The position numbers were made by a program, and so were the translations under genes. The notes under the pieces were generated by a model. It made no database searches, had not been told where the DNA came from, and worked only from the letters and a program-made list of their open reading frames with translations. A DNA stretch of 64,000 bases from an uncultured Microbulbifer sp. (lineage in GTDB: Bacteria > Pseudomonadota > Gammaproteobacteria > Pseudomonadales > Cellvibrionaceae): contig NZ_CANNGQ010000004.1 of NCBI RefSeq assembly GCF_947504145.1, forward strand, positions 1 to 64,000, in the 5' to 3' direction. Of the stretch, positions 18,887 to 45,936 are shown one piece after another (the first letter of the stretch is position 1; the number at the start of each line of letters is the position of its first letter).

Positions 18887-18890
18887 GAAA

Positions 18891-27633: not shown

Positions 27634-27702
27634 GCCTCTCTGCCTTATATATAGCCCGCTGGTAGTGCTTCTTTTGCTAGCACCGGGCGGCAAAGCACCG
27701 GG

Positions 27703-27786
27703 TGGGTGTTTTTGAAACCGCGGTGAATACATCCCTGTACGCTGCGTCGCAAACGTCCCTGTTTGCGACGCTTTCAAAAACACCCA
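27703..27786. repeat. palindromic three-way-junction element (copy A)
   Basis: Between accC and prmA. Outer arms are perfect 15-base complements (27703-27717 TGGGTGTTTTTGAAA; 27772-27786). Inside are hairpin 1, TACA-TCCC-TGTA (27728-27739), and hairpin 2, an 11-bp stem GCGTCGCAAAC (27744-27754) with loop GTCCCT. The segment GTGAATACATCCCTGTACGC is identical to that in copy B near 45.02 kb. It sits in a 208-base gap with no gene. Confidence 0.8.
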
Positions 27787-27841
27787 GCCGCCACATACGC
27801 CCCAAGCACCCGAAGACCACTACCCGGAAACCCAAAGACAA

Positions 27842-28732
27842 ATGCCCTGGCTCCAACTCCGCGTAAATACCAACCGCGAACAGGCAGAGAAAATCGAAGA
27901 TGCCCTGCTGTTCGCCGGCGCCGTCTCCGTCACCCTGCAAGACAACGCCGACCAGCCCATCCTTGAACCTGGCCTCGGCGAAACACCCCTGTGGGACGAG
28001 ACCCTCGTCACCGGCCTGTTCGACGCCCAGGTAGACACCAACGTTACCGAGGCCAAAGCCGCCTCCCATCTCTGCGAGCTCTTACCGAACGCCCGCTGGG
28101 AACAGCTCGAAGACAAAGACTGGGAACGGGAATGGATGAGCCACTACAAACCCATCCAATGCGCCAGCAACCTCTGGATCTGCCCCAGCTGGTGTGAACC
28201 GCCGGCACCGGATGCCGTCAACCTCATGCTCGATCCCGGTCTCGCTTTCGGCACCGGCACCCACCCCACCACCTTCCTGTGCCTGCAATGGCTCGCCGGC
28301 GAACCGGTGCAGGGCAAAACCGCTATCGACTTCGGCTGCGGCTCCGGCATCCTCGGCATCGCTGCCCTGTTGCTCGGCGCCGAGTCCGCCATGGGCACCG
28401 ACATCGACCCCCAGGCCCTACTCGCCAGCCGCGACAATGCCGTGCGCAACGGCATCGACCCGGAGCGCTTCCCCGTCTACCTGCCGGAAAAAGCCCCCAA
28501 GCCGGAAGAGTCCAGTGCGGACATCATGCTCGCCAATATCCTCGCCGGGCCGCTGGTAGAGCTAGCGCCACAACTGGTCGAGCGCACCAGGGTCGGCGGT
28601 CGCATCTGCCTTTCCGGGATTCTCAACAGCCAGGCACAGAAGGTGAAAGCGGCCTACAGCCAGTGGATCGACTTTGATACGGATGGCGAAAAAGAAGAAT
28701 GGGTGCGCCTGAGCGGGACAAGAGCACGATAA
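27842..28732 (+). CDS. prmA: ribosomal protein L11 methyltransferase
   Basis: S-adenosylmethionine-dependent trimethylation of ribosomal protein L11. 296 residues. N-terminal L11-binding domain (PWLQLRVNTNREQAEKIEDA), then the Rossmann methyltransferase domain with DFGCGSGILGIAAL for AdoMet and NILAGPLVELAP as the NPPF-like motif; LAFGTGTHPTT is diagnostic. It follows accC in the Pseudomonas order, separated by copy A of the palindromic element. Confidence 0.97.
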   Translation: MPWLQLRVNTNREQAEKIEDALLFAGAVSVTLQDNADQPILEPGLGETPLWDETLVTGLFDAQVDTNVTEAKAASHLCELLPNARWEQLEDKDWEREWMSHYKPIQCASNLWICPSWCEPPAPDAVNLMLDPGLAFGTGTHPTTFLCLQWLAGEPVQGKTAIDFGCGSGILGIAALLLGAESAMGTDIDPQALLASRDNAVRNGIDPERFPVYLPEKAPKPEESSADIMLANILAGPLVELAPQLVERTRVGGRICLSGILNSQAQKVKAAYSQWIDFDTDGEKEEWVRLSGTRAR

Positions 28733-28859
28733 AACACTGCGCTCAGATGCGAAGGCGCTGCTGCCACAGAAGCAACGACACAGCGCCCAGACCACAACAC
28801 TACGCCAGAAGGCACGGGACTGATAAACTTCCCCGCCAAACCAATAATCGTCGAATTCC

Positions 28860-30110
28860 ATGTCGCAACTGGTCACCCGCTGCCCCCACTGCAGCACCTC
28901 CTTTCACGTCAGTGAACAGCAACTCCGCGCCGCTCGTGGTGCCGTGCGCTGCGGCTCCTGCCTGCAGGTATTCCGCGCCGACGAAAACATCGTCTTCAAC
29001 GAAGGTGACCCCACCCCCGCCGCCACCCGGAAGGCCATCGACGAACTGCTCGAAGACGACGACTTCCTCATCCACGACGACATCGAGCTGGACGGCGACG
29101 ACAGCGACGACGAAGACGCACTGCCCAAGCAGAATTCCGCCGCCATCAAACCCGCCACCACCAATCCGGCGAAACGCGAGCCCGAAAAGAAAGCCGACGA
29201 CTCCAGCCGCCAGAACCCGCTGATCGACGACGCCTTCGGCGAGCACCAGTGGCAGGACAGCGAAGACGAGGAAGCCACCCAGCAGGAGCTCCACCTCAGC
29301 GGCAGCCTAGACGATGAAATTGACGACCTGAGCCGCGCCAGTGACGCACCCTGGGCCGAAGAAATCGCCCGCGAAGAGTCCACCGGCATCCTGCCCGCAG
29401 ATCACCTGGCCGACGGCTTCGAACAGCCAGATCACAGCGAAGAACCGCTGTTCAGCGACGACCTGCCTCCACCCGCCTCCGGCGGCGCAACCGCAGAAAC
29501 CACCAGACCCGAAGCGGATGACCACATCGACCCGCGCCAGCGGGACCAGGCCCCACTACTACCCAGAGACCAGCTGATCTCCGCCATCGGCGCGGCGCCC
29601 ATCGAAGTGAACTGGCAACCCAAGCGACATAATCACGTGCCCAACTGGCTTTGGACCCTGGGTGTGGTACTGCTGATGCTGGCCCTGGCCGCACAGACCG
29701 CCTACTTCCGTTTTGACACCCTGAGCAAGCGGGACCCCTGGCGCGCCATCTACGCCCAGATCTGCCCACTACTCGGCTGCAGGCTGCCCGCGCAGGTGGA
29801 CATCAACGCCGTGCACACATCCAATCTGGTGGTGCGCAGCCACCCGCAGATTCCCGGCGCGCTTGCGGTGGAGGCGGTGCTGCTGAATCGCGCCCCCTTC
29901 GATCAGCCCTTCCCCACTCTGCAGCTGCGCTTTACCGACCTCAAGAACGCCCCGGTGGCCAGCCGCCGCTTCACCCCGAAGGACTACCTCAAGGGCGAAC
30001 TGTCCGGGCGCAAGCTGATGCCCGCCGGCAACCCCGTGCACATCGCCCTCGACATTGTCGACCCGGGCCCCGACGCAGTGAACTACGAGCTGCGCATCGC
30101 CACCCAGTAA
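28860..30110 (+). CDS. zinc-ribbon and DUF3426 domain membrane protein
   Basis: Function unknown. 416 residues. The start is an MJ0042-type zinc ribbon with two CxxC pairs (CPHCSTSFHV and CGSCLQVF, residues 7-39). A long acidic, Asp/Glu/Ser-rich region (about 60-220) follows, one transmembrane helix (about 260-280, WLWTLGVVLLMLALAAQTAYF begins there) and a C-terminal DUF3426 domain, presumably periplasmic. It holds the same place between prmA and dusB as in Pseudomonas. The acidic linker looks disordered. Confidence 0.85.
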   Translation: MSQLVTRCPHCSTSFHVSEQQLRAARGAVRCGSCLQVFRADENIVFNEGDPTPAATRKAIDELLEDDDFLIHDDIELDGDDSDDEDALPKQNSAAIKPATTNPAKREPEKKADDSSRQNPLIDDAFGEHQWQDSEDEEATQQELHLSGSLDDEIDDLSRASDAPWAEEIAREESTGILPADHLADGFEQPDHSEEPLFSDDLPPPASGGATAETTRPEADDHIDPRQRDQAPLLPRDQLISAIGAAPIEVNWQPKRHNHVPNWLWTLGVVLLMLALAAQTAYFRFDTLSKRDPWRAIYAQICPLLGCRLPAQVDINAVHTSNLVVRSHPQIPGALAVEAVLLNRAPFDQPFPTLQLRFTDLKNAPVASRRFTPKDYLKGELSGRKLMPAGNPVHIALDIVDPGPDAVNYELRIATQ

Positions 30111-30267
30111 AGCTGCAGACAACCGTCGAGAGCCTGCTGGTGGCGCATATTGCTACAAAATGTTGCACAAACTTCGCCCTAAACGGCCAGCCATCGAACA
30201 ATTTGCGCGCTTTTTCGCTTTTCCAGCGGCCAGCCAGCCGCTATCATAGGCCGCTCTTTGACACCGA

Positions 30268-31305
30268 ATGAGACCAGACCCGCGGGAGGGCGAGTTGCCC
30301 ACGGAATTGCCAAGCAGCTTCGCCATAGGCCCTTACACAATAAAGGCACCAGTAATCCTGGCGCCCATGGCCGGCGTTACCGATCGCCCCTTCCGCAAAC
30401 TGTGCCGTGAACTCGGCGCCGGTCTCGTGGTATCCGAGATGGTTACCTCTGACACCAGCCTGTGGAACAGCCGCAAATCGCGGATGCGCCTCAACCACGC
30501 CGGTGAAACGGGGCCCATTTCGGTACAGATTGCCGGTGGCGACCCGGAGATGATGGCCGATGCGGCCCGGGCGAACGTCGAACGTGGCGCCCAGATCATC
30601 GATATCAATATGGGCTGCCCGGCAAAAAAGGTGTGCAAAAAAGCAGCGGGCTCCGCCCTGCTGCGCGACGAAAAACTGGTCGCCGACATTCTGGAAGCGG
30701 TGGTTTCATCCGTCTCAGTCCCAGTGACGCTGAAAATTCGCACTGGCTGGTGCACGGATAGCCGCAACGGAGTGACGGTGGCCAAAATGGCCGAGGATCT
30801 CGGAATTTCTGCCCTGGCAGTCCACGGACGCACCCGCGCCTGCGGGTACCATGGTCAGGCCGAATTCGATACCATTGCCGAGATTGTGTCCGCGGTGAAG
30901 ATACCCGTCTTTGCCAACGGCGACATTACCGGCGCGGAAAAGGCCCGCACGGTGTTGGACTACACCGGCGCCAAGGCGGTCATGATTGGCCGCGCGGCTC
31001 AGGGACGTCCATGGATTTTCCGGGAAATTGCCCACTACCTGGCAACAGGGGAGCATTTACCGGAGCCCTCACTGGAAGAAGTCAGGGATATATTGATCAC
31101 TCACCTGGGTGAGTTACACCGGTTTTACGGTGAGGTTATGGGGGTACGTATTGCCCGCAAACATGTGGGTTGGTACGTAAAGACGCTCGCCGACAGCGAG
31201 TCCTTTCGCAAGACCTTTAACCGATTGGATAGCGCAGAAGCACAACATGCCAGCGTTCGTGAGTGGTTTGAACGCCGAATAACTAGAGGGGCAAAAGCGG
31301 CATGA
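30268..31305 (+). CDS. dusB: tRNA-dihydrouridine synthase B
   Basis: FMN-dependent reduction of a uridine in the tRNA D-loop. TIM-barrel protein with [16 protein letters not shown], the catalytic Cys in [18 protein letters not shown], and [10 protein letters not shown]. Two starts are possible: ATG at 30268 (345 residues, no ribosome site) or TTG at 30295 after GGGAGGGCGAG (336 residues). Its stop overlaps the ATG of fis by four bases, the classic dusB-fis operon. Confidence 0.95.
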
Positions 31306-31601
31306 CTAACGAAGCACTAATTCCGGATACCAGCGATGTGGTATCCACTGGGGGCCAGACTCAACTACAACAACCGCAGGCCTTGCGCGATGCGGTTGAA
31401 CAGGCGATGGAAAACTACTTCCGTCACCTGGACGGTCAGATGGTGACCGATGTGTACGATATGGTGCTGTCTGAGATTGAAGCGCCGATGCTGGAAGTGG
31501 TAATGAAACACACCCGCCACAACCAGACCCGCGCCGCACAGCTGCTGGGCCTCAACCGGGGTACCCTGCGCAAAAAGCTCAAGCGCTACGGCCTGCTGTA
31601 A
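31302..31601 (+). CDS. fis: DNA-bending nucleoid protein Fis
   Basis: Growth-phase-dependent DNA-binding and bending protein that activates rRNA genes. 99 residues. The C-terminal helix-turn-helix is clear ([20 protein letters not shown]), preceded by the dimerising helices ([17 protein letters not shown]). It starts inside the stop of dusB (ATGA). A strong hairpin at 31651-31683 follows. A link to the rrn-like promoters at the left edge is plausible but not shown. Confidence 0.97.
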
Positions 31602-31650
31602 GGCAGCCAACCGCTACCGGCAAGCATAAGCCGGAGCGGTAAAAATTCGA

Positions 31651-31683
31651 CGAGGGGGGATGAGCCAGGCTCATCCCCCCTCG
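31651..31683 (+). terminator. hairpin terminator after fis
   Basis: A 14-bp perfect stem CGAGGGGGGATGAG with loop CCAGG and its complement, followed by CTATTTGTATTT. The run of T is interrupted, so efficiency is uncertain, but position and stability fit the end of dusB-fis. Confidence 0.65.
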
Positions 31684-31742
31684 CTATTTGTATTTCCGAC
31701 GTTTCTAACCTGCTCTTTATACCTCTAGATGGACCAAGCGAT

Positions 31743-33317
31743 ATGACTGACAAGGTGGCCGTTCGCCGCGCGCTGATCAGCGTTTCCGATAAAACCGGCA
31801 TTGTGGAATTTGCCCGCGAACTTTCCAACATGGGCGTGGAGATCCTCTCTACCGGTGGTACCTACCGCAAGCTCGGCGAAGCCGGCATCCCGGTAGTGGA
31901 AGTCTCTGACTACACCGGCTTCCCCGAAATGATGGACGGCCGTGTCAAAACCCTGCACCCGAAAGTACACGGCGGCATCCTCGGCCGCCGCGGCACCGAT
32001 GACGCGGTGATGAGCGAGCACGACATCAACCCCATCGACATGGTCGTGGTCAACCTGTACCCCTTCAAGGCCACCGTTGCCGATCCCAGCTGCGACCTGC
32101 CCACCGCTATCGAAAATATCGACATTGGCGGCCCCACCATGGTCCGCTCAGCCGCCAAGAATCACAAAGACGTCGCCATCCTCGTCAATGCCCACAGCTA
32201 CGACACCGTGATCGAAGAAATGAAAGCCAATGATGGCCAGCTGGGCTACGAAACCCGCTACGACCTGATGGTGCAGGCGTTCGAGCACACCGCACAGTAC
32301 GACGGAATGATCGCCAACCACTTCGGCGCGCGTAATACCAAGAACGAAGCCCGTGCCTTCCCCAACACCTTTAACGTCCAGTTCGAAAAAGCCCAGGACA
32401 TGCGCTACGGCGAAAACCCACACCAGAAGGCGGCCTTCTACGTAGAAGCCGACGCGGAAGAAGCCTCCGTGTCCAGTGCCAACCAGCTTCAGGGGAAAGA
32501 GCTCTCCTTCAACAACGTTGCCGACACCGACGCCGCCCTGGAAACCGTCAAACTGTTCGACGAGCCCGCCTGCGTCATCGTCAAACACGCCAACCCCTGC
32601 GGCGTTGCCGTAGCCGGCGACATCAAAACCGCCTACGAACTGGCCTTCGCCACTGACCCGGAATCCGCCTTCGGTGGCATCATCGCCTTCAACCGCGAGC
32701 TGGACGCCGAAACCGCCCAGCTGATCGTCGACAAGCAGTTCTCCGAAGTCATCATCGCCCCCAAAGTCAGCACCGCTGCTGCCGAAGCTGTCTCCGCCAA
32801 AAAGAACGTACGCCTGCTGGAGTGTGGCGAATGGAGCGCCAATCGCCCCACCGCGTTTGACTACAAGCGCGTTACCGGCGGACTACTGGTGCAGGAAAAA
32901 GACAACGGCATGGTCGCCAAAGACGACCTCAAAGTCGTCACCAAGGCACAGCCCACCGACGAGCAGATGGACGAACTGCTGTTCGCCTGGAAAGTCGCCA
33001 AAATGGTTAAATCCAACGCCATCATCTACGCCAAAGACGGCCGCACCATCGGCGTCGGCGCCGGCCAGATGAGCCGTGTCAACTCCGCCCGCATCGCCGC
33101 CATCAAAGCCGAGCACGCCGGCCTCGAAGTGAAGGGTGCCGTTATGGCCTCCGACGCCTTCTTCCCCTTCCGCGACGGCATCGACAACGCCGCCAAGGTC
33201 GGCATCAGCGCCGTAATCCAACCGGGTGGTTCCATGCGCGATGAAGAAGTCATCGCCGCCGCGGACGAGCACGGCATGGCGATGGTGTTTACCGGCATGC
33301 GTCACTTCCGTCACTGA
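31743..33317 (+). CDS. purH: bifunctional AICAR transformylase/IMP cyclohydrolase
   Basis: Last two steps of IMP synthesis. 524 residues. N-terminal cyclohydrolase domain with [19 protein letters not shown] and [15 protein letters not shown]-terminal transformylase with [22 protein letters not shown] and the AGQMSRV and [11 protein letters not shown] signatures. Follows fis and precedes purD as in Pseudomonas, with a palindromic element (copy D) between purH and purD. Confidence 0.98.
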
Positions 33318-33371
33318 TCGACGCGATCTGTCATGACTCTGCAGCAAACAACCCGCAGAGTCAGGCGCGAA

Positions 33372-33483
33372 GGGGCTGTGACTGGTGGCCATTCGCGAGA
33401 CCTTCACCGCCATGGATGGCGGTGCAGAGCCCCCAAGGACGGGTTCACGGCGTGTCTCGCGAATGGCCACCAGTTGCAGCCCC
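33372..33483. repeat. palindromic three-way-junction element (copy D)
   Basis: Between purH and purD. Outer arms of 30 bases (33372-33401 and 33454-33483) pair at 28 of 30 positions and include TGGCCATTCGCGAGAC and its complement. Inside: hairpin 2, CACCGCCA-TGGA-TGGCGGTG (33405-33424), and hairpin 1, CCCA-AGGA-CGGG (33432-33443), weaker in this copy. Orientation is opposite to copies A, B and C. Confidence 0.8.
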
Positions 33484-33593
33484 GCCACGGACTGGCCAGG
33501 TACCTCGAAACTCCGATGCCGGTTCGAAGTCAGATTTGCACTTCTGAATGCTAAACTAGCCCACCTAAATAACAGGCACGGGGAAACTCAAGA

Positions 33594-34889
33594 ATGAACA
33601 TCCTGGTAATCGGCTCTGGTGGCCGCGAACACGCTCTGGCCTGGAAGGCCGCACAGAACCCCGCCGTAGACACCGTCTTCGTCGCCCCGGGCAACGCCGG
33701 CACCGCCCGCGAACCCAAACTCCAGAACGTCAACATCGGCGTCGACAACTTCTCCGCCCTCTCCGACCTCGTCGAAGAAAAAGGCATCGACCTCACCATC
33801 GTCGGCCCCGAAGTCCCACTTGTCGACGGCATCGTCGACTTCTTCAACAGCCGCGGACACAACATCTTCGGCCCCGAAAAAGCCCCCGCCCAGCTCGAAG
33901 GCTCCAAAGCCTTCACCAAAGACTTTCTCGAGCGTCACGACATCCCCACTGCCGCGTACCAGAACTTCACCGAAGTCGAACCGGCCATCGCCTACCTGCG
34001 CGAACAGGGCGCCCCCATCGTCGTCAAAGCCGACGGTCTCGCCGCCGGTAAAGGCGTCATCGTCGCTGAAACCGTAGAACAGGCCGAGCTGGCCGTGCGC
34101 GACATGCTCAGCGGCAACGCCTTCGGCGAAGCCGGCTGCCGCGTGGTGATCGAAGAGTTCCTTACCGGCGAAGAAGCCAGCTTCATCGTCATGGTCGACG
34201 GCGAAAACATCCTGCCCATGGCCACAAGCCAGGACCACAAGCGCGTCGGCGACGGCGACACCGGCCCCAACACCGGCGGTATGGGCGCCTACTCCCCAGC
34301 ACCGGTAGTGACGCCAGAAGTGCACGATCGGGTGATGAAAGAAGTCATCGAACCCACCGTCAAGGGCCTCGCCAGTGAAGGCATGCCCTACACCGGCTTC
34401 CTATATGCCGGCCTGATGATCAACGAAGAGGGTGCGCCCAAGGTCATCGAATACAACTGCCGCTTCGGCGACCCGGAAACCCAACCCATCATGATGCGCC
34501 TCAAATCTGACCTGGTAGAGCTGTGCATGGCCGCCATCGAAAAGCGCCTGGATCAGGTCACCGTCGAGTGGGATTCCCGCCCTGCGCTCGGCGTAGTTCT
34601 GGCCGCCCACGGCTACCCCGGCAGCTATCGCAAAGGCGACGCCATCTCCGGACTCGACAAGGCCGACGGTGAAAACGCCAAGGTCTTCCAAGCCGGCACC
34701 GCACTGGACGGCGAGCGCGTAGTGACCAGCGGCGGCCGCGTGCTCTGCGCCACCGCACTGGGTGACACCGTGGCCGAGGCCAAGGAGAACGCCTACGAAT
34801 GCGCGCGCAAAATCTACTGGGAAGGCTCCTTCTACCGCAAGGACATCGGTTACCGCGCGGTAGAGCGGGAAGAATCCGAGAAAGCCTGA
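33594..34889 (+). CDS. purD: phosphoribosylamine-glycine ligase
   Basis: ATP-grasp enzyme joining glycine to phosphoribosylamine, second step of purine synthesis. 431 residues. N-terminal MNILVIGSGGREHALAWK, ATP-grasp glycine-rich KADGLAAGKGVIVAE, and the signature VIEYNCRFGDPETQP. Ribosome site GGGGAAA precedes the ATG. It follows purH beyond copy D of the palindromic element; coq7 follows 35 bases later. Confidence 0.98.
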   Translation: MNILVIGSGGREHALAWKAAQNPAVDTVFVAPGNAGTAREPKLQNVNIGVDNFSALSDLVEEKGIDLTIVGPEVPLVDGIVDFFNSRGHNIFGPEKAPAQLEGSKAFTKDFLERHDIPTAAYQNFTEVEPAIAYLREQGAPIVVKADGLAAGKGVIVAETVEQAELAVRDMLSGNAFGEAGCRVVIEEFLTGEEASFIVMVDGENILPMATSQDHKRVGDGDTGPNTGGMGAYSPAPVVTPEVHDRVMKEVIEPTVKGLASEGMPYTGFLYAGLMINEEGAPKVIEYNCRFGDPETQPIMMRLKSDLVELCMAAIEKRLDQVTVEWDSRPALGVVLAAHGYPGSYRKGDAISGLDKADGENAKVFQAGTALDGERVVTSGGRVLCATALGDTVAEAKENAYECARKIYWEGSFYRKDIGYRAVEREESEKA

Positions 34890-34924
34890 TTTCCGCCACA
34901 TAATCACTCCAAAGGAACGCATCT

Positions 34925-35572
34925 GTGAGCAGCCATCGTCAATTAACCGGACTCGACCGCCTGCTGCTGCAGGCGGACCGTGCCCTGCGCACCCTGAGCC
35001 CGGGCTCGCCCTGCCACGAGCGCCCATCGCCGGCCAAATCCACCGATGAGGCGAAACTGTCTGACCGCGAGCGCCGCCATGCGGCAGGCCTGATGCGGGT
35101 CAACCACAGTGGCGAAGTCTGCGCCCAGGCCCTGTACCAGGGCCAGGCACTGACCGCCAAGCTGCCCCAGGTACGCGCGGAAATGGAACACGCCGCGGAC
35201 GAGGAAATCGACCACCTCGCCTGGTGCGAACAGCGCCTGGGCGAACTGGGCAGCCGCCCGAGTGTACTCAACCCAGTCTGGTACGGACTTTCCTTTGGAA
35301 TTGGCGCCGCGGCCGGCAAAGTCAGCGACAAGGTCAGCCTCGGCTTCGTCGCCGCCACCGAAGAGCAGGTGTGCAAGCACCTGGAGAGCCATCTACAGGA
35401 ACTGCCGGCACAGGACGAAAGAAGCCGCGCGGTGGTGGAGCAGATGCTGGTGGATGAAGCCAAACACCAGCACGCTGCCCTGGATGCCGGTGGCGCACGC
35501 TTCCCCGGCCCCGTTAAGGGCTTGATGACGCTGGTCTCCAAGGCGATGACTTCCGCGAGCTACAGGCTGTAG
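34925..35572 (+). CDS. coq7: 2-polyprenyl-3-methyl-6-methoxy-1,4-benzoquinone monooxygenase
   Basis: Di-iron hydroxylase of ubiquinone synthesis. 215 residues; the ferritin-like helices carry the iron ligands: [18 protein letters not shown] (first Glu), [13 protein letters not shown] (ExxH) and [16 protein letters not shown] (second ExxH). The start is GTG after CAAAGGAACGCATCT. It lies after purD and before a bidirectional terminator shared with the convergent OsmC gene. In Pseudomonas speD lies between coq7 and osmC; it is absent here. Confidence 0.95.
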
Positions 35573-35592
35573 CAGGCGGATATTCTCGAGCA

Positions 35593-35625
35593 TGAAAAAG
35601 GGGAGCCACTGGCTCCCCTTTTTCA
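35593..35625. terminator. bidirectional terminator between coq7 and the OsmC gene
   Basis: A perfect 15-bp stem, TGAAAAAGGGGAGCC, loop ACT, and its complement ending in TTTTTCA. The A-run and T-run on either side allow it to end both convergent transcripts. Confidence 0.9.
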
Positions 35626-35646
35626 TATTCAACCGCTCGAAAGCCC

Positions 35647-36069
35647 TCAGGCCTCCTCGATCCGGTAACTGTGCACTATCTCCACCCCGGCCTTGCCCAG
35701 CATGATGGAAGCGGAACAGTACTTTTCCGCCGACAGCTCAACCGCCTTGGCCACGTGCTTTTCCTTGATATCCCGCCCGCGCACCACAAACTCCATCTCG
35801 ATCTTCTCGAACGGTGCCGGCACCGCATCCGGGCGGTGGCCCTTCAATTCCACGTGGCAACTGACCACATCCTGGCGGGTCTTCTGCAGGATTCCCACCA
35901 CATCGTAGGAGGCGCAGCCGCCCACACCCAGCAGGATCATCTCCATCGGGCGAATCGCGTTGTTCTTCTGCCCACCTTCCATCACCACGGCGTTGCCACT
36001 ACCGGACTCACCGATAAACGTAACGCCATTGACCCAGGTCACCTGACCCTGCATAACACCACCCGCCAT
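35647..36069 (-). CDS. OsmC family redox protein
   Basis: A small cytoplasmic peroxidase-like protein (140 residues) of the OsmC/Ohr superfamily, closest in layout to the YhfA group. The two conserved cysteines are in LLGVGGCASYDVVG and SAEKYCSAS. The start at 36069 follows AGAAGGAGT. In Pseudomonas the same gene neighbours vfr. Substrate unknown; it may reduce organic hydroperoxides or act on small thiols. Confidence 0.88.
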   Translation of the reverse strand: MAGGVMQGQVTWVNGVTFIGESGSGNAVVMEGGQKNNAIRPMEMILLGVGGCASYDVVGILQKTRQDVVSCHVELKGHRPDAVPAPFEKIEMEFVVRGRDIKEKHVAKAVELSAEKYCSASIMLGKAGVEIVHSYRIEEA

Positions 36070-36418
36070 GGGATAGACTCCTTCTCAATTGATGGGGCGG
36101 GGAGCTTATCACACCGGCGCTCCCTCCCCCCATCGCGCTGCGGCCGGATCCACCATTGTTCAAAACGTGACCAGCGTCACTTACCGATTTCCGAATAGTA
36201 AGTCATCACTCACGGCGGTTGTATCGACCTCGCACAACCGTTATAAACAACATCACATTCCGCACGCCTCAGGCCACATCAGCGAAAGCGATAAAGGGTG
36301 GCCCAGATCACATTGCGGACCATTGCCGGCTACAGCCCCTGTCAGCCCCGCGCAATAAGCGGGATAATCCACCGCTTACCGGGATCAGGCACAAAAATTC
36401 TAGAAAAGGAGTAGATCC
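36070..36418. other. divergent regulatory region between the OsmC and CRP genes
   Basis: About 349 bases without a gene. It holds one candidate CRP site (36166-36181) and must carry the promoters for the two divergent neighbours. No small reading frame convinced me. Confidence 0.5.
36166..36181. promoter_or_regulatory. candidate CRP/Vfr site upstream of the CRP gene
   Basis: CGTGA, six bases (CCAGCG), TCACT. Inner half-sites GTGA and TCAC are perfect and correctly spaced; the outer positions differ from TGTGA/TCACA. It lies about 240 bases upstream of the CRP start and about 100 bases upstream of the OsmC start, so it may serve autoregulation or the OsmC gene. Confidence 0.45.
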
Positions 36419-37054: not shown

Positions 37055-37071
37055 CAACACCTGCACACCGA

Positions 37072-37109
37072 ACACAAAAAAGCCGGGCAAATGCCCGGCT
37101 TTTTTGTGT
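37072..37109. terminator. bidirectional terminator between the CRP and M3 peptidase genes
   Basis: A 17-bp stem, ACACAAAAAAGCCGGGC, with loop AAAT and the perfect complement ending in TTTTTTGTGT. Runs of A and T on both sides suit the two convergent genes. Confidence 0.9.
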
Positions 37110-37164
37110 CTTTTCCAAACCTGCTCAATCCCGCGTCCCTGCGAAGATTGCAACTGGCCGCCGG

Positions 37165-39348
37165 TTACTGGCCGGCAACCGGCTTGAGGCCGCGGCGAAT
37201 CAGCAGCGCATCGGTGGTCGGTTCCTTGCCGCGGAATTTCACGTAAGACTCCATGGGCGGGCGCGAGTTGCCGACTTCCAGGATGTTCTTGCGGTACAGG
37301 TCACCATTCTTGCGGCTCAGACCGCCGCGCTCGCGCAGGTAAGCGAACGCATCTGCAGCCAGGATCTCACTCCACATATACGCGTAGTAACCGGCTGAGT
37401 AGCCACCGCCAATGGAGTGGGCAAAATAGGTGGACTTGTAACGGGGCGGTACCGCCGCTAGGTCCACACCGTGTTTGGCCAGTGCCTCGGCTTCAAACTT
37501 CTCCACGTCCTGTGGCTTGGCGTCCGCAGGCAGGGAGTGCCATTCCATATCCAGCAGTGCCGCAGACATGTACTCCAGGGTGTCGAAGCCCATGTTGAAG
37601 TTTTTCGCCTTCATCACTTTAGCCAGCAGTTCTTCCGGAATGGCTTCGCCGGTTTTGTAGTGGTAGGCGTAATTCGCCAGCACTTCCGGGTGGCTCGCCC
37701 AGTCCTCTTCAAAGGTGGATGGGAATTCCACGAAGTCGCGGGAAACCGCAGTGCCCGCCAGGCTCGGGTAGTGCACGCTGGAGAGCATGCCATGCAGGCC
37801 GTGGCCCAGTTCGTGGAACATGGTGGTCACGTGGTCGAAGCTCACCAGGGTCGCTTCCCCTTCCGGACCTTTCGGAATGTTCATTACATTCACGACCACC
37901 GGCTTCTGCTTCAGCAGCCCGGATTGCCCCACAAAGGAACTCATCCAGGCACCGCCGCGCTTGCCGTCACGAGCAAAGTAATCCGCATAGAAGATCGCCA
38001 GGCTTTCACCGTCGTGATCGAACAGTTCAAATGCCTGCACATCCGGGTGGTACACGGGCAGGTCCGGGCGCGGCTTGAAGGTAACGCCGTACAGGCGGTT
38101 CATGGTGTAGAAGAGGCCGTCTTTCAGTACGCGGTTAAATTCGAAGTACTCGCGCACCTGGCTCTCATCCAGCTCGTATTTTGCCTGGCGCACTTTTTCC
38201 GCGTAGTAAGCCCAGTCCCAGGGCTGCACGTCAAAATCGCCGCCTTCCGCTTCAATCATGGCCTGGATATCGGCCTGCTCCGCCTGGGTGTTTTTAACCA
38301 CCGCCGGCACCATGGAGTTCAGCATGCTGAACACGTTTTCCGGCTTTTCCGCCATGGTGCTGGTGAGCTGGTACTCGGCCCAGTTGCCGTAGCCCAGCAG
38401 ATCGGCTTTCTGCGCGCGGATCTGTACCAGGCGTTTCACCAGCGGGCGGTTATCCAGCTCGCCGGAGGTGCCGCGGTTGGCGGACGCTTCCCAGATGCGC
38501 TGGCGCAGCTCGCGGTTTTTCAAAGAGGTGAGCACCGGCTGGCGGGTGGTGTTGGTGATGCTGATCAGGTATTTGCCTTCGTGGCCGGCAGCGGTGGCAG
38601 CCTCAGCGGCGGACTTGATCTGGTTTTCCGTCAGGCCGTCCAGCTCGCTCTTCTCATCCACCACTACGGCGATTTCTTTGCTGAGCTTCAGCAGGTTCTG
38701 GCTGAACTGGGTGGTGAGGGTGGAGTGCTCTTCGTTCAGTGCACGCAGAGTGACTTTCTGCTCTTCGGACAGCTTGGCGCCGGCCTTGACGAATTTCTCG
38801 TAGGTGTTTTCCAGCAGGCGTGCGGACTCCGCATCCAGCTCCTTTTCAACACGCTGGTTGTACAGCTGCTCTACACGGGCGAACAGGGCGCCGTTCAGGT
38901 AGATGCTGTCGGAGTGGGCCGCCAGTTTCGGGGCCAGCTTGCTCTGCAGAGCGCGGCGCGCTTCGTTGCTGTCGCTGCCCACCAGGTTGAAGAAAATGCG
39001 GGAAACGCGAGTCAGCAGCTCACCGGATTGCTCCATGGCCACGATGGTGTTGTTGAAGCTGGCGGGCTCCGCACTGTTGGCGATGGCCTGGATTTCCTGC
39101 AGGTGCTCGTGCATGCCCTGCTCAAAGGCGGGCTCAAAGTGACCGTCTTTGATCTCACTGAAATCAGGCGCCTGGTACTGGAGGCTGCTGGGCGTCAGCA
39201 GCGGATTGTCCTGCGCATTTGGCGTGGCCAGATCAGCGGCGGTCTGGTTTTTTTCCACGTCCGCTGACTGTGCGGACTTGTTCTCGTTCGGTGCCTCGGA
39301 ACAGGCGGCAACCGCCACGATGGCTAAGGCAAGCAGGGATTTGCGCAT
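37165..39348 (-). CDS. M3 family peptidyl-dipeptidase, lipoprotein form
   Basis: A zinc metallopeptidase of the Dcp/oligopeptidase group. 727 residues. The start MRKSLLALAIVAVAACSEAP is a lipoprotein signal with lipobox VAAC (Cys16), so the enzyme is envelope-anchored, unlike cytoplasmic E. coli Dcp. The catalytic HExxH is in MFHELGHGLHGML, and GGYSAGYYAYMWSEI is a typical M3 C-terminal motif. Stands alone between the CRP gene (convergent) and trpC (same strand, far downstream end). A role in breaking down peptides in the periplasm is likely. Confidence 0.92.
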   Translation of the reverse strand: MRKSLLALAIVAVAACSEAPNENKSAQSADVEKNQTAADLATPNAQDNPLLTPSSLQYQAPDFSEIKDGHFEPAFEQGMHEHLQEIQAIANSAEPASFNNTIVAMEQSGELLTRVSRIFFNLVGSDSNEARRALQSKLAPKLAAHSDSIYLNGALFARVEQLYNQRVEKELDAESARLLENTYEKFVKAGAKLSEEQKVTLRALNEEHSTLTTQFSQNLLKLSKEIAVVVDEKSELDGLTENQIKSAAEAATAAGHEGKYLISITNTTRQPVLTSLKNRELRQRIWEASANRGTSGELDNRPLVKRLVQIRAQKADLLGYGNWAEYQLTSTMAEKPENVFSMLNSMVPAVVKNTQAEQADIQAMIEAEGGDFDVQPWDWAYYAEKVRQAKYELDESQVREYFEFNRVLKDGLFYTMNRLYGVTFKPRPDLPVYHPDVQAFELFDHDGESLAIFYADYFARDGKRGGAWMSSFVGQSGLLKQKPVVVNVMNIPKGPEGEATLVSFDHVTTMFHELGHGLHGMLSSVHYPSLAGTAVSRDFVEFPSTFEEDWASHPEVLANYAYHYKTGEAIPEELLAKVMKAKNFNMGFDTLEYMSAALLDMEWHSLPADAKPQDVEKFEAEALAKHGVDLAAVPPRYKSTYFAHSIGGGYSAGYYAYMWSEILAADAFAYLRERGGLSRKNGDLYRKNILEVGNSRPPMESYVKFRGKEPTTDALLIRRGLKPVAGQ

Positions 39349-39560
39349 TTCGATCTCCGATAAGGGTTTCAGGTCCGGGTACCTTGCAGGTATCAGACCA
39401 ACAAAGATGCCTAACGCGCCAATATATCACCTTGTGCCTGACTGGGAATTCAGGCGAGTGCGGCTTATCCCGCGTGTGCAACCGTTCGTCCCGTTGTGGC
39501 CTGGGTGACCGGCAGTAAATCCGGGGTCTGCTGAGGGGGTATTGAAAGGCCGGGGAAAAG

Positions 39561-39645
39561 ACCATCGTCATTCCGGCGCATGCCGGAATCCAGCTTCTGG
39601 AGGCTGAATTCCGGGTCAGGTCCGGGATGACGGAGAGTGATGGTG
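39561..39645. repeat. REP/MITE-like inverted repeat
   Basis: Ends are CGTCATTCC (39566-39574) and GGGATGACG (39624-39632), with a 20-base perfect palindrome ATTCCGGCGCATGCCGGAAT (39570-39589) inside; ACCATC and GATGGT extend the outer pairing. This CGTCATTCC...GGATGACG design is common between genes in many proteobacteria. It is unlike the three-way-junction family elsewhere in the window. Lies between the M3 peptidase start and the trpC stop. Confidence 0.65.
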
Positions 39646-39671
39646 CCTGGCGGCCGGGGGAAGCGGAGGAC

Positions 39672-40466
39672 TTAGTTGAACAACTCCATCAAACGGCGGC
39701 CCGGCTCTTCTTCGCGCATGAAGGCTTCACCCACCAGAAACGTGTCCACGTTGTGACCGCGCATGGCCGCCACGTCATCGGTGGTGTGAATGCCACTTTC
39801 GGTGACCACGATACGGTCTTCAGGAATCAGATCCAGCAGCCCGAAGGTGGTTTCCAGCTGTACCTCGAAGGTGTGCAGATTGCGGTTGTTGATGCCGATC
39901 AAACGGTTCGGCAGTTTCAGCGCACGCTCCAGCTCCGCGCGATCGTGCACTTCCACCAGCACATCCAGACCCAGCTCGATCGCCAGGTCATTCAGGCTGA
40001 TGAGCTGCGCATCGTCGAGGCAGGCCGCGATCAGCAGGATGCAGTCGGCACCGATGGCGCGGGCCTCGTACACCTGATACGGATCGACAATAAAGTCCTT
40101 GCGGATCACCGGCAGGCGCACCGCATTGCGGGCCTGCTGCAGGTATTCATCGGCCCCCTGAAAAAAGTCCACATCGGTCAGCACCGACAGACAGGCCGCG
40201 CCGCCCTTTTCATAGCTGGTGGCAATTTCCGCGGGAATAAAATCTTCGCGGATCACGCCCTTGCTCGGGGAGGCCTTTTTGATCTCGGCGATCACCGCCG
40301 CTTCACCGGCGTTGCGCTTGGCTTCAATCGCACTGACAAAACCCCGGCAGGGCGGCTGCTTCAGCGCACGCTGTTGCATCTCATCCAGGCTGATCCGCTG
40401 CTTGCGCTCGGCCACCTCTTCCCACTTGCGCTCGACAATCGTTTTCAGAATTGTTGGTGTACTCAT
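39672..40466 (-). CDS. trpC: indole-3-glycerol phosphate synthase
   Basis: Fourth chemical step of tryptophan synthesis, closing the indole ring. 264 residues, monofunctional TIM barrel: [35 protein letters not shown] (catalytic Lys), [17 protein letters not shown] and VTESGIHT. The ATG at 40466 follows GAGAGTGAAG; the longer reading to 40532 overlaps trpD and is unlikely. Four bases after trpD, last gene of the trp run. Confidence 0.97.
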
Positions 40467-40470
40467 TACT

Positions 40471-41505
40471 TCACTCTCGGAATGCACTGGTAAAGGCGGC
40501 CAGCTCGTTAATTTTTTCTCCGGCGAGGCCACTGTAGATGGCGTCCTGTGCCATGCTCACCCCTTCCGCCCGGCTCGCAGCCACGCCACTTGCGTAGATG
40601 GCCATACCGGCATTCATGGCAATGATATCAGCTGCCTTATCCCCCGCAGGGGTCTCGCGCTTGCCGAGGGCATCGCGGATCAGTGCCAGAGACTCTTCAG
40701 AGCCGTCCACACACAGCCCGTCCAGGTTCTGCCGCTCGATACCGAAATCTTCCGGCGCGATGGTGACTTTCTTCAGCTCACCATTCTTCAGTTCCCAACC
40801 GCGGGTATCTGCTGCGAGGCTCACCTCGTCCAGCCCATCGTCGCTGTGTAGCACCAGCGCATGTTCAGAGCCCAGCTGCTGCAACACCTCTGCCAGCATG
40901 CGTGTGTAGTGCGGATCAAACACACCAATCACCTGGCGCTTCACGCCGGCGGGATTGGTGAGCGGGCCCAGCAAATTGAAAATGGTGCGCAGGCCCAACG
41001 CCTTGCGCGGGCCGATCGCGTGGCGCATGGCGCTGTGATAACTAGGCGCAAACATAAAGCCCACCCCCACGCCGTCGATACAGCGGGCAACTTGCTCGGG
41101 AGTCAGCGGAAGATAGATACCGGCTTTTTCCAGCAGGTCTGCGGCACCGGAGGAAGAGGAAACCGAGCGATTACCGTGCTTGGCCACGCGCGCGCCAGCA
41201 GCGGCGGCAACAAAACTCGAAGCACTGGAGACGTTAAACAGGTTGGCGCCATCACCACCGGTACCGACAATATCCACGGCGTTGGTCTGGTCGATCTCGA
41301 CCTTGGTGCACAGCTCGCGCATAACTTCCACGGCACCGGTGATTTCCTCAACGGATTCCCCGGCCATACGCAGGGCCACCAGAAACGCACCAATCTGCGC
41401 ATCTTCCGCTTCCCCGCGCATAATCTGACCCATGGCCTTGCGCATCTCTCCACGGGTGAGATGTTCACCCTCGACCAGTTTTCCGATGGCCTGTTGGATA
41501 TTCAT
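40471..41505 (-). CDS. trpD: anthranilate phosphoribosyltransferase
   Basis: Joins anthranilate to PRPP. 344 residues. Signature [17 protein letters not shown] (PRPP loop), [19 protein letters not shown] and [13 protein letters not shown]. It starts 220 bases after trpG; that gap holds copy E of the palindromic element, which interrupts the trp operon. trpC follows at once. Confidence 0.97.
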
Positions 41506-41581
41506 TATTATTCCTCCCCCAAATCCCTAATCAGGTTGGATAGCAGATTTCCGGTATTACTCAGCGCTTCGATGCGAAGGT

Positions 41582-41687
41582 GCTGATGCCGGAATCCGTT
41601 TGCGAGACCTTCTAAAACAGGGACGTTTTAGAAGAGCCCCCATGGATGGGTTCACGGCGTGTCTCGCAAACGGATACCGGCAGCAGC
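41582..41687. repeat. palindromic three-way-junction element (copy E)
   Basis: Between trpG and trpD. Outer arms of 27 bases (41582-41608; 41661-41687) pair at 25 of 27 positions. Hairpin 2 has stem CTTCTAAAAC (41609-41618), loop AGGGAC and perfect complement; hairpin 1 is CCCA-TGGA-TGGG (41639-41650). GGATGGGTTCACGGCGTGTC is shared almost exactly with copy D. Orientation as copy D. Confidence 0.8.
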
Positions 41688-41725
41688 GCCGCCACCAGCC
41701 CACCTACGAAGCACAATCCCAAACC

Positions 41726-42304
41726 TCAAGACTCCAAAAAATTCCTCAGCATATCGTGCCCATGCTGAGTCAAAATCGACTCCGGGTGAAACTGCACCCC
41801 CTCGATCGGCAATTCGCGATGACGGATGCCCATGATTTCGTCGATCTCACCGCTTTCGGTCTCGGTCCAGGCGGTAACCTCCAGACAATCCGGAAGGCTG
41901 CCCTTCTCCACCACCAGCGAATGGTAACGGGTCGCTTCGAAAGGATTGGAAAGACCATTAAACACACCGAGATTGTTGTGAATAATCGGCGAGGTCTTGC
42001 CGTGCATCACTTCCCCCGCACGCACCACGCGACCGCCAAATACCTGACCGATACTCTGGTGGCCGAGGCAGATACCGAGGATCGGCAGCTTGCCGGCATA
42101 GGTGCGGATGGTCTCCATGGAGATACCCGCTTCGTTCGGTGTGCAGGGGCCCGGCGAGATAACAATTTTTTCCGGGTTCAGTTTCTCAATATCCGCAACG
42201 GTAATTTCATCGTTGCGCTTGACCACAACCTCCGCACCCAACTCGGCGAGATACTGCACGATGTTGAAGGTGAAGGAGTCGTAGTTGTCGATCATCAGGA
42301 TCAT
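41726..42304 (-). CDS. trpG: anthranilate synthase glutamine amidotransferase subunit
   Basis: Supplies ammonia from glutamine to TrpE. 192 residues, class I amidotransferase: start [14 protein letters not shown], nucleophile Cys in [13 protein letters not shown], and the His-Glu end in [14 protein letters not shown]. Its ATG overlaps the stop of the ion channel gene (ATGA), so the two are translationally coupled. In Pseudomonas trpG lies directly with trpD and trpC. Confidence 0.97.
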
Positions 42305-43155
42305 GATTGGCTTCCTTTCTCATCCCCAAGATCTCCCAGACGCTTCTGCAAGCGGGCCAGGGAATCCTGGGTAGCGCGCAATTCGCGCAGAATTTCGGTT
42401 TGGCTCGGCGGCATCGCCAGCTCGTCCAGGCGGCGCAGCTTGGCCTCTTCCAGATTGTTCAGCACCACCCCGATAAACAGGTTGATCATCACAAACGCGC
42501 CCATCACCACAAAGCTCAGGAAATAAATCCAGGCGTAAGGCATGGACTCCATCGCCGTGTACATGATGTCCGTCCAATCCTCAAACGTCACAATCCGGAA
42601 CAGACTCAGTAGCGCGATGGGCAGATTGCGCCAGTGGGTGGGGTCGATTTCGTGAAACAGGAAATAACCGGCCACCCCGTAAATGTAAAAAATGATTCCC
42701 ATCAGCAGGCTGATATGAAACATACTCGGCAGACTGCGCAGCAGCGTATCCACCAGCAACCGCAATTCCGGAAAGGCCGATACCAATCGCAAAACCCGCA
42801 GCACCCGTACCAACCGCGCGAGTGTGGCCATGGGGCCCGCCGCCGGGATCAGGCTCAGAACAATGATGGAGAAATCAAACACGTTCCAGCCATTGGCGAA
42901 ATAGCGCCAGGGGCGATTGCCATGGGCGAAAATTTTTATCGCCGCTTCAACCATAAACGCCAGCAGGATCAACTGATTGATCCCGTGCAGCGCACTGCTA
43001 AACCGCTCCAGTACCCAGGTTGAGGTTTCCAGCCCCACCACCACGGCATTCACCAAGATCAGGGCGATAATCACCTGATTGAACAGCGGTGCCTCCACCA
43101 AACGGCGACATTGCTCGGAAAAACTGCGTTTCTGTTCTACGGAAATTTCACTCAT
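42301..43155 (-). CDS. voltage-gated ion channel of the bacterial Nav type
   Basis: A 284-residue six-helix channel subunit, likely forming a tetramer. Helix S4 has regularly spaced arginines ([13 protein letters not shown]), and the pore loop reads [14 protein letters not shown], where TxExW matches the selectivity filter of NaChBac-like channels. The last helix ends in a charged coiled coil. Filter details (FED instead of LES) leave the ion choice open, Na+ or Ca2+. The ATG at 43155 is chosen; an in-frame GTG at 43179 is possible. It sits inside the trp cluster between trpE and trpG, overlapping trpG by four bases. Confidence 0.88.
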
Positions 43156-43189
43156 CGGCTTTACTGCTTCCAATGACACTTGTTAAAGG

Positions 43190-44671
43190 TTATTGCCCGG
43201 TGGCAATGGCCACCGCGCGGAACAGAGCCCGCGCTTTGTTCATGGTTTCATCCCACTCGGATTGCGGATCGGAATCCGCCACCAGGCCGGCACCGGCCTG
43301 TACATAGACTTTTTCGTCCTTGATCACCGCAGTGCGAATCGCGATGGCGGTATCCATATTGCCGTTCCACGCCAGGTATCCCACGGCACCGCCGTATACA
43401 CCGCGTTTTTCCGGCTCCAGCTCATCAATGATTTCCATGGCGCGGATCTTGGGCGCGCCGGAAAGCGTGCCTGCCGGATGTGCCGCGCGCAGGGCGTCGA
43501 TGGCATTGAGTTCCGGCTTAATCCGCCCGGTCACGTTGGAGACGATGTGCATCACGTGGGAGTAACGCTCCACCACCATTTTGTCAGTGACCCGCACACT
43601 GCCGGTTTGTGCAACCCGACCCACATCGTTGCGGCCGAGATCGATCAACATCAGGTGCTCGGCAATCTCTTTCGGATCTGCCAGTAAGTCTTTCTCCAGC
43701 GCCTGATCCTGTTCCTCGGTGGCACCGCGGCGGCGGGTGCCGGCGATTGGGCGCACGGTCATGTCGCCGTCTTCCAAATGCACCAGAATCTCCGGGCTGG
43801 AGCCCACCACCTGGTGGTCGCCCAGGTCGAGGAAGTACATATATGGAGACGGATTCAGGCTGCGCAAGGCGCGGTAGAGATTCAGTGGCGGCACGGTGAA
43901 GGGTGCCGACAGGCGCTGGGACGGCACTACCTGCATAACGTCACCGGCCAGGATGTAATCCTTGACCTTGTGCACGCCCTGCTTGAAGGCATCTTCGCCG
44001 AAATGGGAGGTAAAAGTATCTTCCGCGGTGTGGTAGCCGTCGATGCCCAGGGGCTCGACACTGGCGAGCGGCTGGGACAGCTGGCCCACCAGTTGGTCCA
44101 GGCGGCGCTGGGCGGTTTCAAACGCGTCGCTCTGTTCCGGGTCGGCGTGCACGATAAACAGCACCGCACCGGCGAGGTTGTCGAACACCACCAGCTCGTC
44201 GCTGACCATCAGCAGGATATCCGGGTTGCCCAGGTTATCCGGCGGGCAGCTGTCGGCCAGTTTGGGCTCGATATAGCGCACCACGTCGTAGCCGAAGTAG
44301 CCCACGAGGCCGCCATTGAAACGGGGCAGACCTTCAATTTCCGGCACCTTGTAGCGGTTGCGAAATTCTTCGACGAAGGCCAGCGGGTCTTCCACCTGTT
44401 TCTGCTCGACGATCTTGCCATCGCGCTCGACCACTACGTCATGACCGGTCACCTTCAGTACGGTGCGCGCGGGCAGGCCAATAATGGAGTAACGCCCCCA
44501 TTTTTCTCCACCCTGTACGGATTCCAGCAGATAGCTGTAGCGGCCGCCGTCGCGGGCGGCGAGCTTCATGTAGGTGGTGAGCGGGGTTTCTATGTCGGCC
44601 AGTACACGGCGGACTAGGGGTATGCGGTTGTATCCTGCAGACGCAAGTTGGGCGTATTCGCTGGGGGTCAT
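43190..44671 (-). CDS. trpE: anthranilate synthase component I
   Basis: Chorismate to anthranilate, first committed step of tryptophan synthesis. 493 residues. N-terminal feedback region includes [15 protein letters not shown] (LLES tryptophan-binding motif). Catalytic region includes [34 protein letters not shown] and [18 protein letters not shown]. First trp gene of the group; no tandem-Trp leader peptide or attenuator is visible upstream. Confidence 0.97.
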
Positions 44672-44980
44672 GGCGACTCCGGTCTGTGCAATGCTTTGTA
44701 TCGTGTTACGGGGTCTGGATTACGCATCGTTTGTGGAATCCTACCCGCGAGAAATGCGCCCGTGCGACCGGTTCGTTTCACCAGGTCTTCAGGCTTCAGC
44801 GGATCAGTGGCGCCATCGCCAGCTGTTGATGTGGGGGGCAGTGCAGTTCAATGTCACTTTCTCGCAGCGTTGGGGTCGCAGCGTCGAGTTGCTTCCCTGT
44901 ATTCCGGCGAGCAAGTGTACAAATCTCTTGTGGGGTGGGCAAGCGCCGGTGATCTGTGGCCATTTTGACCTTCAGTGGCG
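44672..44980. other. intergenic region between rpe and trpE
   Basis: About 310 bases without a gene, followed by copy B of the palindromic element. In Pseudomonas gph (phosphoglycolate phosphatase) lies between rpe and trpE. No remnant of it is visible in any frame here. I see no trp leader peptide. Confidence 0.5.
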
Positions 44981-45089
44981 CCAGGGCACCGGGTATAGCT
45001 TTTCGGAATCGCTGTGAATACATCCCTGTACGCTCCGGCGGCGACGTCCTGTCGCCGACGGTTCCGAAAAGCTATACCCGGCACCCTGG
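44981..45089. repeat. palindromic three-way-junction element (copy B)
   Basis: Just downstream of the rpe stop, on the trpE side. Outer arms of 28 bases (44981-45008; 45062-45089) pair at 26 of 28 positions. Hairpin 1 is TACA-TCCC-TGTA (45019-45030). Hairpin 2 is about 10 bp around loop GTCCT (45036-45060, core CGGCGAC/GTCGCCG). The arms resemble those of copy C on the other side of rpe (GCACCGGGT...GCTTTTCGG). Confidence 0.8.
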
Positions 45090-45105
45090 CTTCGATTCGA
45101 GCTTA

Positions 45106-45774
45106 TTAGGCTCGAGCCAGCTCCGAACGCATCACCTTGATCACTTCCGCATAGTCATCCGCGTTGAAAATGGCGGAGCCGGCGACGAAGCTGTCGGCGC
45201 CGGCCTGGGCGATTTCACGGATGTTGTCTTTGGTTACGCCGCCGTCGATTTCCAGGCGGATGTCGCGGCCGGAGTCGTCGATGAGTTTGCGGGCTTCTTT
45301 CAGCTTATCGAGGGTGGCGGGGATGAATTTCTGACCGCCGAAGCCGGGGTTTACGGACATGAGGAGGATCATGTCGAGTTTATCCATGACGTATTTGGCG
45401 GCGTCGAGGCTGGAGGCGGGGTTGAACACCAGGCCTGCGTTGCAACCGAGAGACTGAATAAGCTGCAGGGAGCGATCGACGTGCTTGCTGGCTTCCGGGT
45501 GGAAGGTGATGTAGCTGGCACCGGCATCGGCGAACATGCGGATCATATCGTCGACCGGTTCGACCATGAGGTGAACGTCGATGGGGGCTTCTACACCGTG
45601 GTTGCGCAGTGCTTTGCAGACCATGGGGCCGATGGTGAGGTTGGGGACGTAGTGGTTGTCCATTACGTCGAAGTGCACCCAGTCGGCGCCGGCGGCGAGG
45701 ACATTGTCGACTTCCTCACCCAGGCGGGCGAAATTGGCGGAGAGGATGGAGGGTGCAATTTTGTAGTCTGGCAT
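45106..45774 (-). CDS. rpe: ribulose-phosphate 3-epimerase
   Basis: Interconverts ribulose-5-phosphate and xylulose-5-phosphate. 222 residues, TIM barrel with metal ligands: start [55 protein letters not shown] and EIDGGV. The ATG at 45774 is the family start; the longer reading to 45930 runs through copy C of the palindromic element. Copies B and C flank the gene on both sides. Confidence 0.97.
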
Positions 45775-45825
45775 TTTCTCGTCTCGGTGCTTTCGTCGTG
45801 GCCCCTTTGATTCAGGCCTTGTGGC

Positions 45826-45936
45826 GGCCGGGCACCGGGTGGAGCTTTTCGGGACCGCTGTAAACCCATCCCTGGGCGCTGCGGCGCAAACATCCTGTTT
45901 GCGACGCTCCCGAAAAGCTCCATCCGGCACCCGGCC
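45826..45936. repeat. palindromic three-way-junction element (copy C)
   Basis: Between murU and rpe. Outer arms of 29 bases (45826-45854; 45908-45936) with three mismatches, containing GGAGCTTTTCGGGA and its complement. Hairpin 1 is CCCA-TCCC-TGGG (45865-45876); hairpin 2 has core CGCAAAC, loop ATCCT, GTTTGCG (45885-45903). Same orientation on the plus strand as copies A and B. Confidence 0.8.

Follow-up and report, generated by a model that had tools for sequence, protein, structure and literature searches.

Long palindromes with a branched head in a Microbulbifer contig

The stretch of DNA analysed here (positions 1 to 64,000 of contig NZ_CANNGQ010000004.1, assembly GCF_947504145.1, from an uncultured Microbulbifer sp.; hereafter the window, 64,000 nt in full) carries five full copies of a dispersed palindromic repeat, which take the first five places in a listing of the window's inverted repeats. 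The element consists of a constant head, made of two hairpins in a three-way junction, atop a stem of 25–45 bp that is variable in sequence yet paired, and it is typically about 120 nt long, with longer copies in this genome reaching about 176 nt. The head loops read RTCCNT on one strand, which is ANGGAY on the other (the GGA strand), and the heads fall into two subtypes, A (..TTTTCAGGACCGCTGTGAA..) and B (..TTGCGAGACACGCCGTGAA..). Copies in this genome mostly start with GTGGCGG and finish with CCTTCGC.

Copy 1 (27684–27806, + strand) has a type A head with hairpin 1 TACATCCCTGTA and scores 90.1 bits with covariance model R2 and 64.0 bits with model R1; copies 4 (44975–45095, + strand; R2 138.9 bits) and 5 (45821–45941, + strand; R2 143.3 bits) are also of type A. 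Type B is represented by copies 2 (33367–33488, − strand; R1 127.7 bits) and 3 (41574–41695, − strand; R1 132 bits), with hairpin 2 stems CACCGCC and TTCTAAAAC, respectively, and the head core with hairpin 1 of copy 3 (GTGAACCCATCCATGGGGGCT, recovered by pattern scan at 41635–41655 on the − strand) serves as an example. The models come from alignments of 17 sites (R2) and 20 sites (R1), and only five places in the window score E<0.001 with them, two extra R2 matches with E values of 0.2 and 0.36 being left uncounted. A preliminary description of the window, made from the letters alone, had proposed five complete copies in which an outer stem encloses two hairpins, and both the inverted-repeat listing and the covariance models confirm them, with model limits that exceed the earlier ones by 5–20 nt (copy 1 had been placed at 27703–27786). 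When the sequences within those earlier limits are folded with RNA energies, they form three-way junctions with energies from −42 to −86 kcal/mol, and the loops and stems that had been quoted are present.

A further, degenerate copy had been claimed at 18784–18886, and this holds for half an element only. What matches the family at 18798–18860 (− strand, limits approximate) is hairpin 2 (CGGCGACAGGGACGTCGCCG on the + strand), together with one arm and the CCTTCGC end, while the remaining half is decayed and does not match; R2 gives 10.7 bits over 18798–18933 (E 0.0085 in a 251-base search), and the half copy is missing from the whole-window match lists.

Pairing is kept while sequence changes

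We aligned copies from this genome and found that altered sequence goes with preserved pairing, as had been argued from the window alone. Alignment A1 holds 39 of the 54 sites found with a hairpin 1 pattern (see below), and 37 of these, two long-loop rows having been dropped, entered the pair counts; over 44 pair positions they contain 1467 Watson–Crick cells, 11 G.T cells and 125 of other kinds. Many of these 125 are mismatches that recur between copies, G.A in hairpin 2 (27/37) being an example. With hand-written structures, paired cells made up 94.0% and 97.6% of two alignments vs 75.7% and 79.9% after shuffling, none of the 500 shuffles reaching the observed values, and at most 47% of cells remained paired when the structure was slid by 1–3 columns. 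Cells changed on both sides and the covariation score also lay far above shuffled and slid controls in these two sub-alignments; the count of further pair types was not above shuffles in alignment A2 (473/500 as high) and only weakly so in A3 (29/500).

For a wider view we used a set of 323 copies for which TCC in hairpin 1 and an arm score were required, and from which decayed copies are missing because of those requirements. Hairpin 2 was located in 308 of the 323, with a TCC loop in 303/308 and 63 distinct stem ends; the TCC of hairpin 1 is imposed by the search, whereas the conservation of the hairpin 2 loop is not.

Copies are numerous in the genome and recur across Gammaproteobacteria

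The 21-nt hairpin 1 pattern, with up to two mismatches allowed, occurs at 54 places in the 4.36-Mb genome, which exceeds chance (reversed control 0), and the type-B model yields 90 matches at E<=0.001 that correspond to 64 distinct places, 26 being the same place on the opposite strand. Further copies, which the preliminary description required, thus exist within the genome and, in surveys run with R1 only, well beyond it. A first search of relatives found matches in 27 of 38 genomes, several congeners having at least 93 scored candidates and seven having 0–4. The pattern is present in 44 of 48 genomes of the genus at counts from 0 to 175, and it overlooks variants (one genome, G005, has 0 pattern sites and 23 model matches). 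In a sample of Gammaproteobacteria, 54/369 genomes and 50/272 genera contained matches at E<=1e-6 with stricter filters.

An exact 32-mer core occurs, among the matches listed, in Microbulbifer, Marinobacter, Marinimicrobium, Haliea, Cellvibrio, Exilibacterium, Stenotrophomonas and a Lysobacteraceae bin. Twenty-one copies from other genera have a nearly identical head (recognised by eye in the 5 that the regular expression did not catch) and long, near-perfect arms that differ. Stenotrophomonas maltophilia has 15 pattern places, one locus (L299) being cut off by the contig end and not read, and the arms there form related groups with co-changes. The unlike arms across genera suggested that an element might acquire its arms anew by copying host target DNA when it inserts, a candidate weakened by the related arms that S. 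maltophilia copies share. The head also lies just 3′ of a haloalkane dehalogenase gene, before an ISAs1 transposase, on pDCA of Ancylobacter (L294:2501-2556) and of Xanthobacter (L296:1501-1556), and the dehalogenase gene of pDCA may be of gammaproteobacterial origin together with its 3′ repeat.

Elements change in place at orthologous sites

Elements at orthologous sites were found inverted or deleted as well as conserved. Among 20 congener loci for copy 3, the element keeps its orientation in 15 and is inverted in 2, 1 shows a deletion with both ends left and 2 are without it, and at these loci the element is conserved while the surrounding intergenic DNA has mostly diverged. Copy 2 is in place at 15/18 congener loci and copy 5 at 12/13, the thirteenth being a deletion with ends left; copy 4 is present at 6/13 and absent from 7/13. 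Stenotrophomonas genomes hold the element at 11/15 loci of one site and at 5/5 of another. Arms co-change in place (at L122, a copy 3 locus, two positions in each arm have changed together), and hairpins exchange whole, hairpin 2 having been swapped as an entire module at copy 3 (TAAAACAGGGACGTTTTA vs CGCGAGAGGGACCTCGCG).

Arm changes were counted on minimum spanning trees for copies 2, 3 and 5 (15, 14 and 11 distinct rows), omitting rows that were identical (L121), gapped (L128), inverted (L123 and L134), deleted (L133 and L147) or in which the copy 5 head was not found (L143 and L149). Across the three sites, paired double changes number 32 in the inner 17 bp, beside 12 single-sided and 3 other double changes; the corresponding counts for the outer 13 bp are 24, 51 and 1. 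Transversion-kind swaps, for which no G.T wobble intermediate is possible, account for 24 of the 56 paired double changes. The closer match of the arms towards the tip is the expectation of foldback template switching, and selection could add to it. These counts bear on a reading that we consider unlikely, namely that the repeats are structured RNA elements in mRNA 3′ regions whose pairing is kept by compensatory selection on the transcript: the dominance of single-sided changes in the outer arm suits it, but the transversion-kind swaps do not, the G.U route being impossible for them.

Mismatches are biased to one strand

Mismatches in the 323 copies are strongly asymmetric, with 317 A.C cells on the CCATCC strand (equal to G.T or G.U on the GGA strand) vs 33 G.T cells, beside 329 other mismatches and 8968 Watson–Crick cells. 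A looser aligner applied to 285 copies with distinct arms gave 318 A.C vs 69 G.T (type B alone, 185 vs 59), and the sign is equal in all type-B groups, being weakest in Stenotrophomonas (17:9) and in the own genome (22:11). Part of the A.C excess consists of recurrent subtype-A mismatches inherited together. Because neutral decay predicts about equal numbers of both mismatch kinds, the GGA-strand fold seems to be the one that matters, and the strand that tolerates wobble is the strand with the GGA loops. The bias appears in both orientations relative to neighbouring genes (A.C vs G.T of 28 vs 8 for ‘++’ and 42 vs 11 for ‘--’), and since orientation is itself about random, host-gene transcription is disfavoured as its source. 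For the reading as 3′ RNA elements the asymmetry and the near-invariant loops suit a fold of one RNA strand; against it, the bias has an equal sign in both orientations.

The loops of the GGA strand also raise the question of CsrA/RsmA, short hairpins with ANGGAN loops being high-affinity CsrA sites with an optimal distance of over 18 nt (PMC7652899). Bottom-strand transcripts would expose two such loops that one CsrA dimer could bridge, and the repeats would then be dispersed CsrA/RsmA binding sites, which we regard as improbable. ANGGA does stand in the hairpin loops of the bottom strand, the two GGA motifs are 20–21 nt apart in 311/313 copies measured, and some bottom-strand hairpins 1 (those with TACATCCCTGTA on top, in 22/323 copies; sequence GTACAGGGATGT) fit RUACARGGAUGU, the consensus from systematic evolution of ligands by exponential enrichment (PMC7652899); but orientation relative to transcription is about random, hairpin 2 stems exceed the favoured four pairs, and such a scheme gives no role to the long outer stem. 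CsrB/RsmZ-type RNAs share the ANGGA-loop hairpins, whereas the present element is dispersed, has its hairpins within one long stem and lies in either direction relative to transcription. The ANGGAY loops fit the CsrA/RsmA recognition motif, and their recognition by CsrA/RsmA is putative.

Copies lie behind genes and avoid divergent gaps

Gene context was counted with our own codon-usage open reading frame caller for 63 of the 64 places in the genome, one 60-nt partial place having been dropped. None of the 63 lies inside a predicted gene: 54 are between co-directional genes, 7 in convergent gaps, 1 in a divergent gap and 1 has a neighbour that the caller left unresolved. Divergent gaps therefore take 1/62 resolved copies vs 17 of the 78 element-free gaps of >=50 nt in the same stretches (the remainder being 53 tandem and 8 convergent). 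Among 192 copies elsewhere, 64 and 59 are tandem in the two orientations, 41 convergent, 10 divergent and 18 unresolved. A hairpin behind a gene would be tolerated, or might be useful as a 3′ mRNA stabiliser, and it would be harmful in promoter regions, which could account for the deficit in divergent gaps.

Of the 54 tandem copies, 38 start 20–50 nt past the stop codon of the upstream gene (median 35), one of these copies sitting between riboflavin genes (named by eye), and this placement speaks for the reading as 3′ RNA elements. There is, however, no clear orientation preference, the genes lying on the GGA-loop strand in 32 of the tandem copies and on the other strand in 22, with 64 vs 59 elsewhere. 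With orientation about random, a simple role in the mRNA is disfavoured, though the element may give rise to an RNA of its own. Close pairs are inverted in 4/4 cases in this genome and in 10/10 in another (G008), and a cargo gene common to such doublets was rejected, the genes between the pairs read being ordinary and different (named by eye). Within the window, copy 1 is flanked by two genes, both on the + strand, and copy 4 neighbours rpe-like and trpE-like genes (names assigned by eye).

No named family or linked transposase was found for the repeat

No named repeat family matched the element in the tests made (Rfam 15, one ERIC locus, and blastn of phages, plasmids and E. coli), in agreement with its having gone unrecognised in the preliminary description. 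Rfam 15 gave 0 matches at the gathering threshold in the window, and a permissive scan of 41500–46000 returned sub-threshold matches only, such as microRNA models. ERIC/IRU, an enterobacterial repeat, is an intergenic palindrome of similar length; the element differs from it in that one E. coli ERIC locus, with filters off, scores no more than 4.5 bits with one model and 5 bits with the other. By blastn, the 60-nt head has no match among 5,426 E. coli genomes and is found in 0 of 50,697 phage records and 3 of 72,556 plasmid records, and copy 3 is found in none of the phage or plasmid records. No name for the family turned up in the literature searched, a body that leaves out most subscription journals.

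REP, BIME and REPIN elements, palindromes tagged GTAG or CGTC, offer the closest likeness, and REPs are intergenic, lie behind genes, are rare in divergent gaps and form inverted doublets (PMC3733652). The present element resembles them in being short, extragenic, present in many copies, behind genes, rare in divergent gaps and often in inverted doublets, and these likenesses are what favours a classic REP/REPIN mobilised by a RAYT transposase. Its structure is not that of a 20–40 bp single hairpin; it is about 120 nt long with a three-way-junction head, poorly conserved arms, conserved loops and no RAYT linkage seen. The linked RAYT gene that had been suggested was sought around 21 Y1 transposase loci (90.9 kb; 20 chosen congener loci and the own one, a chosen part of the places listed from 48 genus genomes), where R1 and R2 gave 0 matches and no link was found. 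An NHVHL (HUH) motif is present in 13 of these 21 loci. The sole Y1 match of the own genome (L056:1462-2226; G000:C2:328505-328834) has a REP-associated score below the cut-off and carries NMIQI in place of the HUH motif, which suggests a domesticated or dead gene. Three congeners lacking any Y1 match still hold 9, 29 and 25 pattern sites. A RAYT mobiliser was sought in the own genome (one degenerate gene), in the 48 genus genomes and, with both models, around the 21 loci; it is rejected for now, and we give the classic REP/RAYT explanation little credence.

Proposed arm copying and constraint on one strand

We interpret the family, with a probability of roughly 60%, as a REP/BIME-like repeat, unnamed in the literature searched, whose arms are homogenised by template switching, whose fold is constrained on one strand and which is spread by some factor. 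On this reading the elements are non-autonomous small interspersed palindromes that fill a REP/BIME-like niche with a different build. Hairpin (quasipalindrome) template switching during replication would copy one arm onto the other and largely keep complementarity, and double changes without intermediates would follow from arms being copied. Template switching is described as homogenising arms and inverting the spacer (PMC8604942) and as creating and repairing stems (PMC8794818). It predicts that arms become alike, that double changes span several bases and that the spacer inverts; the two papers concern RNA genes and yeast coding DNA, whereas the present element is a dispersed bacterial repeat family. 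The strand-biased wobble and the near-invariant loop point to selection on one strand's fold, and a factor that spreads copies might recognise the GGA-loop strand in the form of single-stranded DNA or of element-derived RNA. The preliminary description had offered selection on structure or an arm-copying mechanism, and the evidence supports that proposal while fitting both of its branches.

Several observations weigh against this interpretation. Selection for pairing could likewise yield double changes, and the single-sided changes in the outer arm are in excess; the copies share ancestry, for which the counts are uncorrected. The inner stem of own type-B copies has no strand bias (3:3). One Stenotrophomonas copy (L316, in G081) has a left arm of one S. 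maltophilia group, a right arm like the other and poor pairing, and is apparently a recombinant. Re-insertion at the same gap may have occurred, and the two inverted copies may be new insertions. No mobiliser was found for the element, nor was any clean empty site with a target duplication found in the congener and Stenotrophomonas loci examined, the unoccupied gaps in relatives being too diverged for alignment.

We also consider, tentatively and at less than even odds, a class-wide selfish or structural element in which only the head and the act of pairing would be inherited, while the arms would undergo constant rewriting and the ANGGAY-loop strand would be some factor's substrate. Each copy would then gain its long near-perfect stem through the copying of one arm onto the other, and the loops may be entry points for further hairpins, building larger branched copies.

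Whether by selection or by template switching, these repeats, which sit between housekeeping genes across many gammaproteobacterial families, provide a natural, replicated test of long-palindrome survival and arm matching. They also bear on the reading of covariation as proof of RNA function, because the strong covariation seen here may arise partly at the DNA level.

Longer copies and other hairpins

Some copies are lengthened by extra hairpins; they are found in the own genome (L091, L092 and L093, at C5:194428, C6:20891 and C3:41957), in congeners and in Stenotrophomonas (L319, L320 and L328), and some of the inserted hairpins carry GGA in the loop again. Three kinds have legible borders (own C5:194428 and C6:20891; L109; L319, L320 and L328), and in these the insert starts directly after loop NGG; own C3:41957 and L137 are unclear. 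A separate insert, about 14 nt long (AGCTAGGCGCCCCC and variants), recurs at the same junction position beside hairpin 1 in L128, L141, L143 and L149 and at own C2:319583, C2:731889, C4:187836 and C2:87445.

At the copy 4 site, the loci L142–L148 are without copy 4 and have a small GC-rich hairpin in the gap, inside which L144–L146 contain GTGGCG/CGCCAC; the hairpin of L144–L146 may be what a deleted inverted doublet left behind. Elsewhere in the window, perfect short inverted repeats at 37072–37109, 35592–35626, 31651–31683 and 61123–61155, several with T runs, look like ordinary intrinsic terminators.

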